Of a stretch of DNA of 44,575 bases, positions 20,809 to 25,528 are shown piece after piece; position 1 is the stretch's first letter; the number at the start of each line of letters is the position of its first letter. The stretch comes from an uncultured Anaeromyxobacter sp. (GTDB lineage Bacteria > Myxococcota > Myxococcia > Myxococcales > Anaeromyxobacteraceae). Made by a program: the position numbers and the translations under genes. The notes under the pieces are model-generated. The model saw only the letters and a program-made list of their open reading frames with translations. It had not been told where the DNA came from and made no database searches. The stretch is from assembly GCA_903904005.1 (NCBI GenBank), contig CAIVAR010000019.1, positions 1 to 44,575 of the forward strand, in the 5' to 3' direction.

Positions 20809-23066
20809 GCACTGCGGACGGCGGAAGGAAGTGGGCGTGGTGGGGGGTCTTCGCGGCGATCCCGGTGCTGGTGGTGGCCTTCCACTGGGCCGCGGCCCGG
20901 CCGGGGATGGCCTTCAACGGCTCCGACCTCCGCTACTTCTTCTACGGCGTTCGCGAGACGGTGGCCGCTGCCCTCCGGCACGGCGAGCTCCCCCTGTGGC
21001 AGCGCGGCTTCTTCATGGGCTACCCGCTCGTGGCCGATCCCCAGGCGGCGGTCTTCGCCCCTGCCACCTGGCTCACCCTCCCCTGGGACGCGCCGCGCGC
21101 GCTCACGCTGGCCACCCTCCTCCACCTCACCATCGCCGGGTGGGGCATGGCCGCCTGGATGCGGCTGCGCTCGCTGTCGCCCGCCTCCGGACTGCTCGCG
21201 GCGGTCCTCTTCGCGCTCGGCGCCAAGCAGACCGTCCACATCGTCCACTGGAACTTCGCGGCCACCACCGCCTTCTGGCCGTGGATGCTGGCCGGGCTGG
21301 AGGGGTTCGCGACCCGGCGCCGCTCGCGCTGGCTCCTCGTCGCGGCGGTGGCGACCGCCTTCGCCTGGCTGGGTGGCTCTCCCCAGATGGCCCACTTCGG
21401 CACGCTGGTGGCGGGGCTCTACGCGCTGCGGATCGCCGTCGACCTCTGGCCGGAGCGGCGCGCCGACGCCGTCTGGGCGGTGCTCATCGTCCCCGTCGGG
21501 TTCGTGCTCGCCGCCGTGCTGGTGCTCCCCACGCTGGAGCTCTCCCGGCTGGGGGCTCGCGCGGTCGTGGTCGACTACGCCTTCGTGACGAGCTGGCGCT
21601 GGCCCGACGCCTGGGGGCTCGCGCTCTACGTGCTGCCCCACGCCTGGGGCGACGGCCGCTGGGGGCTCAACCTCTGGGAGGCCACCGGATACGTGGGGAT
21701 CCCGGCGCTGGCGCTGGCCGTCGCGGCCCCGGCCCGCCGCCGGGGCGTGATCCTCTTCGCCGTTCTCGCCCTCCTCGGGCCGTGGCTCGCGCTCGGAGAG
21801 CGCTCGCCGCTCGGGCTCCACTGGCTCCTCTACAAGGTGCTCCCGGGCTACGGCAGCTTCCGGGTCCCGACGCGGGGGCTGCTCGTCACGGCGTTCGCCA
21901 TGGCGCTGCTCGCCGCCGAGGGGCTCGAGGCCCTGCGGCGCGACCCCACCCGCGCCCGCCTGGCCCGCAGCCTCGGGGTCTTCGCCGCCACCGCCGCGCT
22001 GGCGCTCCTGCTCCCCCGCCTCCCCGGCTTCCCGTTCGACCCGGCCACCACCCGCAAGACCGCCTGGTTCGCGCTGATGCTCTCGGCGCTCGGCGCGCTC
22101 TGGGTGCTGGCGGTATGGCGCGGCCTGCGCGGCGCGGTGGCCGGCGCGGCCATGGTGGCGCTGGCCTTCTACGATCCCTGGTACCTCTTCTCCCGGTTCA
22201 ACGACGTCGCCCCGGGGAAGACCGAGCGTCCGGGGCTGCGCGACTTCGCCCGCATCGTCCCGCCACCGCCCGAGCCGCGCCGGGTGGGGGTCGTCGCCAA
22301 GTGGGGCGCCTCGGTGAACGCGCCGCTGCGGAACGGCTGGGAGGGGACGATGGGCTACGGCCCCATGTCCATCCAGCGCGTCCGGGAACTGCTCGAGGCG
22401 ACGCGGACAGACAAGGTCTCCCGGCTCGGCGCCATGGACGGCGACGCCACCTTCCCGTCGGCCCGGCCCACCTCCCCGCTGTGGCCGCTCCTCGCCACCC
22501 CGATCGTCATCTCCGACGGGGGGCAGCCCGGCCTCCCCACCTACTTCGCCGGGATGCGGGAGTGGGAGAACCCCATGGTGGGCTTCCACGCACCGGCGCT
22601 GCCCCGGGTCTTCTGGACCGGATCGTGGGAGGTGGCGCCCGACGAGGCCGTCACCGAGCCCCTGCTGCGCGCCACCGCCGGGAACGTCGCCGTGCTCGCC
22701 GAGACGCCGACCGGCCTCCCGCCGTCGGGCCCGCCGGAGGGGCCGATCGCCGCCGAGTCGGTCAAGGTCGTCGGCCCCACCCTGGAGGCGACGGTGACCG
22801 CGCCCCGGGACGGGCTGCTCGTCATCGTCGATCCGTTCTACCCGGGCTGGACCGCCACGCTCGACGGCAGGCCCGTCCCCATCCTCCGCGCCAACTTCGC
22901 CTTCCAGGGGGTGCCGGTCACGGCCGGACGGCACGAGCTCCGGCTCATCTACCGGAACCGGTGGGTGCCGATCGGGGCGGCGGTGTCGCTCGGGACGCTG
23001 GCCCTCCTGCTCGCCGCGCTGGCCGTCCGCAACCGCCGGGTCCGGGCCCAGGCGCCCTCGGCGTAG
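20805..23066 (+). CDS. YfhO-like GT-C membrane protein
   Basis: A 753-residue membrane protein. An N-terminal loop GSDLRYFFYGVRETVAAALRHGELPLWQRGFFMGYPLVADPQAAVFAP resembles the YfhO family, whose members glycosylate lipoteichoic acid in Firmicutes and occur widely as uncharacterised GT-C enzymes. About 11-12 membrane spans fill residues 1-470. The C-terminal 250 residues form a soluble beta-rich domain (LLVIVDPFYPGWTATLDGRPVPI, a YfhO hallmark) and end with one last span. The GTG at 20805 has GGGAGGT seven bases upstream. Confidence 0.88.
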   Translation: MSTADGGRKWAWWGVFAAIPVLVVAFHWAAARPGMAFNGSDLRYFFYGVRETVAAALRHGELPLWQRGFFMGYPLVADPQAAVFAPATWLTLPWDAPRALTLATLLHLTIAGWGMAAWMRLRSLSPASGLLAAVLFALGAKQTVHIVHWNFAATTAFWPWMLAGLEGFATRRRSRWLLVAAVATAFAWLGGSPQMAHFGTLVAGLYALRIAVDLWPERRADAVWAVLIVPVGFVLAAVLVLPTLELSRLGARAVVVDYAFVTSWRWPDAWGLALYVLPHAWGDGRWGLNLWEATGYVGIPALALAVAAPARRRGVILFAVLALLGPWLALGERSPLGLHWLLYKVLPGYGSFRVPTRGLLVTAFAMALLAAEGLEALRRDPTRARLARSLGVFAATAALALLLPRLPGFPFDPATTRKTAWFALMLSALGALWVLAVWRGLRGAVAGAAMVALAFYDPWYLFSRFNDVAPGKTERPGLRDFARIVPPPPEPRRVGVVAKWGASVNAPLRNGWEGTMGYGPMSIQRVRELLEATRTDKVSRLGAMDGDATFPSARPTSPLWPLLATPIVISDGGQPGLPTYFAGMREWENPMVGFHAPALPRVFWTGSWEVAPDEAVTEPLLRATAGNVAVLAETPTGLPPSGPPEGPIAAESVKVVGPTLEATVTAPRDGLLVIVDPFYPGWTATLDGRPVPILRANFAFQGVPVTAGRHELRLIYRNRWVPIGAAVSLGTLALLLAALAVRNRRVRAQAPSA

Positions 23067-23084: not shown

Positions 23085-23837
23085 CTACCTCCGCCGGGGC
23101 GAGGCGAGCAGCAGGTGGACGTTCTCGCGCTCCCAGGCGGCGGCGCGGGCGTGGTCGGGGAAGGCCCGTTCCTGGCGCCGGAACTCCCGGCCGTGGATGG
23201 TGCGCCGCCCTCCCCGCTCGGCCGGGGGAACCACCTGGTGGAGCATCTCGTGGAAGACGACCGAGGCCACGTAGAAGGCCGGGACGTCCTCCCGGTCCAG
23301 TGCGGGGTGGATGCGGATGGCGCGGGCGGCGTGGAGGTAGACGCCGGTGCGGATCGACCTGCGCCCGGGCATGGCGCCGCTGCGCCCCCAGCCGATCCGG
23401 GCCTCGACCGCCCCCTCGAAGTGCTCCGCGTTGAGCCGATCGAGGATGGCCTGGAGGTCGTGCACCCGCCCGCTGGCCTGGAGCCGTCCGGTCCGCGGGG
23501 GTGCGATGCGGTCCCGATGGGTGCGGACCCAGTCGTCGATGCGGCGGGAGGCGGTGCGGCGACCGTCTCCCCCGCCGGGACGCACGAAGGCGGCCAGCGC
23601 GTCGGCCACCTCGGGAGGGCAGCCGAGGAAGAGGTGGTGGACGCGGAGCTGGATCCGCGCGCGCTCCCGCCGGAACGAGACCATGGTGTGCCGGTTGTCG
23701 TGGACCACGAGCCGGACCGGCTCGCCGAGCCGCGTGGCCACCTCGTCGGCGAGCCGCTCGGCGGCGGCGACGCGGTCGGGGCGGGGCGCCTCGCGGGCGT
23801 CGAAGGAGAGGTCGAGCTGATCCTCCCGGCGCGTCAC
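23085..23837 (-). CDS. SprT-like zinc metalloprotease
   Basis: A 250-residue protein whose C-terminal half matches SprT-like proteases: VFHEMLHQVVPP gives HExxH at H196-H200, and TIHGREFRRQERAF supplies the third ligand H215. In eukaryotes the related SPRTN/Wss1 proteins cut DNA-protein crosslinks; bacterial members are poorly known. The N-terminal ~115 residues show LRVHHLFLGCPPEVADALAAFV, a region common to bacterial SprT/WSS-like proteins. The GTG start at 23837 overlaps the NFACT stop (GTGA), so the two are coupled. This links a possible protein-crosslink or misfolded-protein protease with a ribosome-rescue-type factor. Confidence 0.88.
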   Translation of the reverse strand: MTRREDQLDLSFDAREAPRPDRVAAAERLADEVATRLGEPVRLVVHDNRHTMVSFRRERARIQLRVHHLFLGCPPEVADALAAFVRPGGGDGRRTASRRIDDWVRTHRDRIAPPRTGRLQASGRVHDLQAILDRLNAEHFEGAVEARIGWGRSGAMPGRRSIRTGVYLHAARAIRIHPALDREDVPAFYVASVVFHEMLHQVVPPAERGGRRTIHGREFRRQERAFPDHARAAAWERENVHLLLASPRRR

Positions 23838-25291
23838 GGTTCCTCCGTCTCGCCCTGGAGGAGCCGCTCGACGCGGGCCGGCTCGACCCGGAGCGCCATC
23901 CCCTTCTCCTGGCTGTAGGTCACCGCCCCCGGCGCGGCCCCCTTCACCTTCCGCACGTGCTTGGCGCGCGTGTAGACCACCTCGGGGGCGGCCTCGCCAC
24001 GGGAGTCGCTGAAGTGGGCCGCGAGGTGGGCAGCGTCGAGCAGGCTCTCCTGGTCGGGGGCCCGCCCCTTCTGCAGGCGGAGCACCACGTGGGCGCCGGT
24101 GCGCCCGCGGGCGTGCAGCCAGACGTCGTTCCCCTTCGCCACCCGCACGGTGAGCTGGTCGTTCTCCGCGGCGCCTCGCCCCACCAGGATGGGAAGCCCG
24201 GCAGCCGACCGGAAGGTGCGGTAGGGCGCAGCCGGCTCCTCGTCGCGCCGGCGCGGCGGGCGCTGGATGCGGGGCCCGGCGCCCAGCTTGCGCGCCTCCC
24301 GCTCCAGCCGGGGCAGCGCCTCGAGGGGCGCGCCGTCGAGCTCGGCGAGCAGGGCCTCGGTGGCCGCCAGCCGGGACCGGACCTCGGCGGCGCGGGCCTC
24401 CACCCGGGCCGCGCTCTCGGCGATGCGCCGGTAGCGCCGGTAGAAGCGCTCCATGTTGGCGCGCGGCGTGAGCGCCGGGTCGAGCGCCAGCGTCACCGGC
24501 CGGGGGCCGTCGGCGGTCCACTCGGTGACGGTCACCTCGCTTGCGCCCCGCGGGATGGCGTGGAGCTCCGGCTTGAGCAGGTCGGCGGCGCGGCGGTCGG
24601 CCTCGGCGGCCGGGACGCGGGCCGCCTCGTCGGCGAGCCGCTCGAGCGCCCGGCGCGAGCGGGCCACGGCGGCGCGCAGCGGTTCCCGGAGCCGGCGCCG
24701 TGCCGCGCCGAGCGCGCGCTCCTCCTCGAGCCTCCGGTAGGCGGCCTCGACGGAGGCCGAGAGCGGGAAGGGCGCGCCGGCCACCGGCGCGAACCGGCTG
24801 GCCTCGCCGTCGCCGGGACGGGGCTCCGGCGGCAGGTACGGCTGGCCGGGCGAGAGCGCCCTCCCGTCGGCGAGGTTCTTCCCGGCCATGGCCCGGACGA
24901 CGCCGGCCGCGTCGACGAGGAAGAGGTTTCCGCTCCTCCCGGTCAGCTCGGCGAGGAGCCGGAGCGTCCCGGCCGGGCGCTCGAAGCGCAGCGATACCAG
25001 GCGATCCCCGCCCGGGGCCTCGATCGCGGCCAGACGCGCGCCGGCCAGCTCACGGCGCAGGACGACCTGGAAGGCGAGCGGCTCGGGGGGCAGCGGGGGG
25101 CGCCAGGTGGCGGCGTGGAGCCGGGTGAGGTCGGGCTCGGCGGAGAGCAGCAGCGTCACCGGTCCGGAGGCCCGCAGGAGCTCGATGGTGAGGAGCCGCT
25201 CGGCGTGGACCCGCACCGCGTCGACCCGCGCACCGGCGAGCGGTGCCAGCTCCGCGATGAGCAGCGCGATCTCGCCGGAGCGAAGGGACAT
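23834..25291 (-). CDS. NFACT family protein (RqcH/FbpA-like)
   Basis: A 485-residue member of the NFACT group (bacterial RqcH, archaeal/eukaryotic Tae2/NEMF). The N-terminal domain shows LLRASGPVTLLLSAEPDLTRLH and ELTGRSGNLFLVDAAG. A helical central part covers about 185-350. The C-terminal NFACT-R domain has NDVWLHARGRTGAHVVLR and VYTRAKHVRKVKGAAPGAVTYS. RqcH binds stalled large ribosomal subunits and adds alanine tails. This protein is shorter than the ~570-residue Bacillus form, mainly in the middle, so tailing activity is not assured. The ATG at 25291 has AGGA upstream. The gene follows a lysine-rich micro-ORF and a hairpin, and is coupled to the SprT-like gene. Confidence 0.9.
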   Translation of the reverse strand: MSLRSGEIALLIAELAPLAGARVDAVRVHAERLLTIELLRASGPVTLLLSAEPDLTRLHAATWRPPLPPEPLAFQVVLRRELAGARLAAIEAPGGDRLVSLRFERPAGTLRLLAELTGRSGNLFLVDAAGVVRAMAGKNLADGRALSPGQPYLPPEPRPGDGEASRFAPVAGAPFPLSASVEAAYRRLEEERALGAARRRLREPLRAAVARSRRALERLADEAARVPAAEADRRAADLLKPELHAIPRGASEVTVTEWTADGPRPVTLALDPALTPRANMERFYRRYRRIAESAARVEARAAEVRSRLAATEALLAELDGAPLEALPRLEREARKLGAGPRIQRPPRRRDEEPAAPYRTFRSAAGLPILVGRGAAENDQLTVRVAKGNDVWLHARGRTGAHVVLRLQKGRAPDQESLLDAAHLAAHFSDSRGEAAPEVVYTRAKHVRKVKGAAPGAVTYSQEKGMALRVEPARVERLLQGETEEP

Positions 25292-25306
25292 GGCTTCCTG
25301 AAACGG

Positions 25307-25332
25307 CTGCGGCCGCCCGGAGGCGGCCGCAG
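25307..25332. repeat. Perfect 11-bp hairpin between the micro-ORF and the NFACT gene
   Basis: CTGCGGCCGCC (25307-25317) pairs with GGCGGCCGCAG (25322-25332) around CGGA. On the minus strand it lies 38 bases after the micro-ORF stop and 15 bases before the NFACT ATG. Only three T residues follow, so it is either a weak terminator, an attenuator, or a stem that sets NFACT translation. Confidence 0.75.
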
Positions 25333-25370
25333 GACCTGGGCGCGAGTTGCCTCGCGCCACGAAGGCAGAG

Positions 25371-25439
25371 TTACTTCTTCTTGGCCTTCTTGGCGACCTT
25401 CTTGACGACCTTCTTCGCGGCCTTCTTCTTCGCAGCCAT
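25371..25439 (-). CDS. 22-residue lysine/alanine/valine micro-protein
   Basis: A short gene with a strong ribosome-binding site (GGGAGG six to seven bases before ATG 25439) and a TAA stop at 25371. After the initiator the product contains only Ala, Lys and Val: it begins MAAKKKAAKKVV and ends in three lysines, with 12 lysines in total, all AAG. The pattern resembles the C-terminal tails of bacterial histone H1-like proteins, but nothing else is attached. A promoter (25496-25524) lies upstream. It may be a small DNA/RNA-binding peptide, or a leader whose lysine run slows ribosomes and so reports to the NFACT gene behind it. Coding seems likely from the ribosome-binding site and strict composition. 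Confidence 0.7.
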   Translation of the reverse strand: MAAKKKAAKKVVKKVAKKAKKK

Positions 25440-25495
25440 GTGTTACCTCCCTGACGAATGGTCAACTACCAACGACGCACGACAAAGACGAATGA

Positions 25496-25528
25496 AGATT
25501 AGCGAACGCAGATCCACCTTGCAAGGTG
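25496..25528 (-). promoter_or_regulatory. Promoter with 14-bp palindrome upstream of the micro-ORF
   Basis: On the minus strand TTGCAA (25519-25524), a 17-base spacer and TAATCT (25496-25501) form a plausible sigma-70 promoter. Transcription would start near 25489, leaving a leader of about 50 bases. A perfect 14-bp palindrome, CACCTTGCAAGGTG (25515-25528), is centred on the -35 box and could be a repressor site. Confidence 0.5.

Follow-up and report, generated by a model that had tools for sequence, protein, structure and literature searches.

Adding alanine tails on 50S-peptidyl-tRNA is the hallmark of RqcH/NFACT proteins (Rqc2, NEMF), and that of the H1-like proteins of bacteria is the binding and condensation of DNA. 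In B. subtilis RqcH, changing the DR motif to AA (D97/R98) abolishes tRNA-Ala selectivity (PMC8373112), and 61 of 72 Myxococcota genomes have been reported to carry rqcH (PMC11633108). The H1-like proteins comprise AlgP of Pseudomonas aeruginosa, described as such (PMC9239181), the chlamydial Hc2, whose size varies via lysine-rich pentamers (PMC2848022), and the proteins of the NCBIfam model hist_H1_lk_Burk; lysine/alanine/proline repeats, a disordered polycationic nature and a repeat-dependent length are common to them. A third kind of described system is the ribosome-mediated attenuator, such as that of bmrB-bmrCD (PMC4191407), where a short ORF is followed by an intrinsic terminator and, just after it, by a gene start. 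One has to keep in mind that lysine codons are not equal: in E. coli, iterated AAA cuts the output about fourfold more than AAG, and AAG runs slow ribosomes in vitro too (PMC4363877).

The locus studied here lies in a stretch of 44,575 nucleotides of Anaeromyxobacter DNA, hereafter the window. Its NFACT gene has the NFACT_N and NFACT-R domains and the DR motif in common with RqcH, with a shorter product (485 aa versus 570 aa in B. subtilis). The micro-ORF that precedes it resembles the H1-like proteins in composition; however, the forms found in the window's family measure only 21–42 aa, give no model match and show linkage to NFACT, and forms of 20–30 aa are far shorter than the known H1-like proteins. 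The short ORF, the terminator and the nearby gene start are shared with attenuators, but the Myxococcota pair has neither a conserved antiterminator nor a conserved stall position, and its ORF reaches H1-like lengths under amino-acid selection. We propose, with a probability of about 0.6, that a genuine gene for an H1-tail-like basic microprotein heads a conserved unit in which it would be followed by a terminator and by NFACT, the latter expressed by read-through.

Organization of the Locus

The source genome is a 4.56-Mb assembly of 186 contigs and belongs to f1, the family of A. soli and A. oryzae (f1 to f23 are the labels of our genome search). The features of the locus are listed in Table 1.

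Table 1. Features of the NFACT locus in the window (positions in the window; ORF coordinates include the stop codon).
Feature	Position	Strand	Basis or remark
NFACT (RqcH-like) gene, 485 aa, DR motif kept (GGDRLV)	23834..25291	(-)	Pfam, alignment
11-bp hairpin CTGCGGCCGCC-TCCG-GGCGGCCGCAG, weak T-run (CCGTTTC)	25307..25332	(-)	equivalent of the relatives' intrinsic terminator
8-bp hairpin GGCGCGAG-GCAA-CTCGCGCC	25339..25358	(-)	found only in the window's genus; not in the preliminary description
Lysine-rich micro-ORF MAAKKKAAKKVVKKVAKKAKKK	25371..25439	(-)	position upstream of NFACT conserved in 11 families
Shine-Dalgarno AGGGAGG of the micro-ORF	25446..25452	(-)	sequence
Candidate -10 hexamer TAATCT, 17-nt spacer	25496..25501	(-)	relatives: TAACCT/TACCAT/TATCGT
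Candidate -35 hexamer TTGCAA, inside 14-bp palindrome	25519..25524	(-)	TTGACG/TTGACA at conserved position in relatives

The NFACT protein matches Pfam NFACT_N (E = 1.4e-44) and NFACT-R_1 (E = 3.1e-13), both above the curated cut-offs. Its nearest solved structures are those of B. subtilis RqcH (PDB 7aqc and 7as8), and its GGDRLV aligns with LDRIM of RqcH, hence the retention of the DR motif. The gene after NFACT (23085-23819, minus strand) gives a SprT-like match (Pfam, E = 3e-6). Elsewhere in the window, ARAGORN called a tRNA-Ala (cgc) at 21289-21369 on the plus strand, inside a 782-aa minus-strand ORF without Pfam match, which is possibly a false call.

The preliminary description of this DNA, made from the window's letters, had reported a 22-residue frame with 12 AAG codons, a ribosome-binding site and a distance of 79 bases to the NFACT start, all of which we confirm: the 22 codons contain 12 AAG and no AAA, and the NFACT ATG at 25291 lies 79 nt past the micro-ORF stop, in a different frame. 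In the 44.6-kb window, no other ORF of 18 aa or longer reaches 30% lysine. The promoter of its own that it had been credited with is less clear in the window, where the best candidate, TTGCAA-17-TAATCT, is a modest sigma-70-like match (7/12) and a strict scan found none; in relatives, however, promoter-like hexamers mostly reach 8–10/12 at about the same place before the small ORF.

Conservation of the Pair in Myxococcota

We read the region upstream of NFACT at 92 Myxococcota loci, with roughly one genome per genus in the outer families. A same-strand ORF rich in lysine and alanine, of 20 to about 200 aa, was found at 60 of these 92 loci, in 11 families: f1, the window's family (21/21), f2 (1/1), f3 (1/5), f4 (19/31), f6 (2/2), f7 (9/10), f8 (1/1), f10 (1/1), f13 (1/1), f16 (2/3) and f18 (2/2). 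The named loci of Anaeromyxobacter soli and A. oryzae have the same arrangement as the window; the tenth f7 locus is cut by a contig end, yet the last codons of the small ORF are visible there, and the f10 locus has an inserted gene. The small ORF is absent from the NFACT loci of f11 (0/7), f12, f17, f19, f21, f22 and f23, some of the recorded absences being uncertain because the NFACT matches are partial. It was not found at any of 46 NFACT loci of Nitrospirota, Nitrospinota, Spirochaetota, Planctomycetota and Armatimonadota, which gave two weak matches, neither of them a lysine-rich gene. In f4 genera devoid of the small ORF (L073, L084, L088, L089), NFACT comes right after, or overlaps, a gene that reads, by eye, like an ATP-dependent DNA ligase.

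At 25 NFACT loci (about 280 kb, window excluded), 18 ORFs of 18 aa or longer reach 30% lysine, and all 18 are this very ORF. The other neighbours of NFACT vary from family to family and the pair persists; the link that the preliminary description had drawn between micro-ORF and NFACT is, indeed, far more conserved than could be told from one locus, and is a phylum-level pattern. Since the micro-ORF precedes NFACT in so many Myxococcota families, the comparison points to a real two-gene unit instead of chance.

The occurrence of the micro-ORF away from NFACT had been put forward as a refutation, a test that the link survives among the matches inspected. DNA pattern searches for ORFs starting with M-A/P-x-K-K, in genomes with and without the linked ORF, revealed no further short pure-lysine gene in the matches inspected (only part of the matches in some genomes), with the sole exception of one 19-codon frame of doubtful status in G151. 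A search of the window's own genome with a 28-aa query was empty, and its positive control gave no match either. DNA matches on contigs C11 and C25 of this genome were rejected, that on C11 being a lysine-rich protein of another kind: it has 128 aa, KKAKASFKKAKAEVKKD repeats and a lysine tail of the H1-like kind (L003 1500-1886, minus strand; G000 contig C11, near 89.6 kb).

Coding Status and Likeness to H1-Like Proteins

Across seven pairs of related ORFs, changes were counted at 25 of 229 synonymous sites versus 17 of 716 nonsynonymous ones (omega 0.22, Fisher p = 6e-7), the sequences compared being short and few. By this measure, the amino acids of the small ORF are under purifying selection. 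The start codon, the ribosome-binding site and the richness in lysine persist while ORF length differs between families, 20 to about 200 aa, through a variable number of Lys/Ala repeats; short forms contain 30–58% lysine, and several families, among them f4, have ORFs ending in non-lysine tails. Coding conservation and linkage to NFACT together point to a real gene, which we read as one for a small polycation (a “mini histone H1”).

The 22-aa and 28-aa forms have no Pfam or NCBIfam match, and the 77-aa and 86-aa forms give weak matches to H1-like NCBIfam models, below the curated cut-offs. In f6 (L026 and L027), the ORF, about 140–900 nt upstream of NFACT, is expanded to an H1-like protein of about 150–250 aa rich in Ala, Lys, Pro and Arg, with a terminator before NFACT. 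The best classification of the peptide is that of a reduced, H1-tail-like polycation; formal membership in an H1-like family fails. A mini histone H1-like peptide merely neighbouring NFACT was the alternative of the preliminary description: its H1-like part fits better than a stall sensor, but the conserved pairing makes the peptide more than a chance neighbour.

A Probable Terminator between the Two Genes

The leader of the window folds better than 200 of 200 dinucleotide shuffles (z -3.7), and an Rfam scan of the window gave no match. Its 11-bp stem is perfect, with just three T in the 12 bases that follow; the absence of a T-run, on which the preliminary description had remarked, applies to the window's genus and to one further family, whereas most relatives do carry one. 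Of 55 genomes, 47 have a stem between the ORF and NFACT that surpasses shuffles (at most 1 of 60), and 40 have at least four T within the 12 bases after it. Stem sequences are family-specific (GCGGCCGCC; GAACGGCTCGGCG; GAAAGGGCAGC), and examples of stems followed by the T-run are GCGGCCGCCTCCGGGCGGCCGCTGCTTTTTT in G015, ACCCGGGCCCCGCGAACGCGGGGACCCGGGTCTTTTTTTT in G073 and GAAAGGGCAGCATAAGGCTGCCCTTTTTGATTT in G152, those of G073 and G074 being textbook terminators by sequence. They mostly lie 20–50 nt past the stop codon of the small ORF, and NFACT usually starts 10–55 nt after the hairpin. As the hairpin bears a T-run in most relatives, we take it for an intrinsic terminator, whose T-run has been largely lost in the window's genus. 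The f7 stems, though strong, lack T-runs, which means that the hairpin does not serve as a terminator in every family.

Proposed Expression Unit and Alternative Explanations

In the unit proposed here, a sigma-70-type promoter would be followed by a strong ribosome-binding site, the Lys/Ala ORF, the intrinsic terminator and the NFACT start codon. Transcripts would mostly stop at the terminator, giving the peptide, and a minority would read through to NFACT; one promoter and a terminator with minor read-through would, thus, result in much peptide and little NFACT, and read-through should be higher in the window's genus, where the T-run has decayed. The polycation would bind nucleic acid (DNA, rRNA or another polyanion), and our guess is that shared regulation or a shared ribosome/RNA target might keep it with NFACT. 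It is conceivable, though unlikely, that the microprotein goes further and is a dedicated partner of NFACT, i.e., an abundant polycation that would bind 50S/rRNA, or the nucleic-acid target of NFACT-R, and act at the same ribosome-rescue step, with a peptide:NFACT ratio set by the conserved terminator.

We give equally low odds to a small gene that would only provide NFACT with a strong promoter and a translated leader, its peptide having no NFACT-related work; the linkage would then persist since NFACT lacks its own promoter. Indeed, promoter-like hexamers between the small ORF and NFACT are clearly weaker than those before the small ORF, and no inner promoter is evident there in a sigma-70-like scan (promoters of other kinds are possible at the NFACT start); NFACT begins right after the terminator and, in lineages without the ORF, often abuts a gene able to supply transcription (G082, G145, G146, G116). 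A donated promoter alone, however, leaves the phylum-wide lysine richness and the amino-acid selection unexplained.

Still less probable is the stall-sensing leader of the preliminary description, in which slow translation of the lysine run would alter hairpin formation and raise NFACT, in a rescue feedback loop. The attenuator-like layout, the conserved linkage with NFACT and the slowing of E. coli ribosomes by AAG runs speak for it, but when the 5' arm of the terminator was matched to the upstream leader, no conserved antiterminator appeared (mean z -0.07, 22 genomes), and the terminator, which bears its T-run in most relatives, stands well clear of the small-ORF stop codon. The lysine codons are AAG almost without exception, i.e., not the more disruptive AAA, even where the genome often uses the latter: AAG:AAA is 90:6 in the small ORF versus 178:82 in the genome for f16, and 16:6 versus 280:296 for f18, the excess in f1 and f4 saying little since those genomes hardly use AAA. 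This preference looks like selection for clean translation, not arrest, although it is not proof. With a tenfold range of ORF lengths, the distance from lysine codons to terminator varies widely; the f4 forms end in non-lysine tails, and it is on amino acids that selection acts.

The DR motif also bears on this leader. By alignment, it is altered (ER, SR or lost) in the NFACT of f3, f4, f8, f13 and f16, SR being the form of f4, a large Myxococcaceae-type family, and such proteins may perhaps not make alanine tails. The ORF is present where DR was lost (f4, f8, f13, f16) and absent where it was kept (f11, f12); as its presence or absence does not track the motif, the small ORF does not follow alanine-tailing competence. 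The stall-sensing feedback is, in short, unsupported: the odds of a regulatory effect of translation on NFACT are lowered, and a sensor is a minority reading. As for chance, i.e., a GC-rich genome yielding an AAG/GCC-rich frame beside a hairpin, the peptide is short and of low complexity, but the conservation (60/92 loci, 18/18 lysine-rich ORFs in 280 kb at this place, 0/46 loci in other phyla) refutes it.

Gene callers easily overlook a protein of 20–30 residues, half of them lysine, such as the one conserved next to a single gene in this phylum. If the basic microprotein and NFACT do work together, the former would be an added component of bacterial ribosome quality control; alternatively, some NFACT proteins may do another job, several relatives retaining the pair with the DR residues gone. 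The constant terminator between both genes offers a simple, testable case of fixed-ratio expression through read-through. In open-access papers, we found no description of the small-ORF-NFACT pair and, among RqcH studies, none describing a lysine-rich upstream gene; this silence is weak evidence of novelty, as subscription literature was outside the scope of the search.

Elements Upstream of the Small ORF

The 14-bp palindrome of the preliminary description (CACCTTGCAAGGTG, 25515-25528) does exist, but it shares bases with the likely -35 box and lacks conservation even among members of the window's genus; we, thus, rejected it as an operator. Presumed 5'-terminal hairpins precede the small ORF in the 5' UTRs of L009, L015, L034, L074 and others (GTCCATTC..GAATGGAC in f1, GCACTC..GAGTGC in f4), and several families have a further small hairpin, of family-specific sequence, around the Shine-Dalgarno site of the small ORF.
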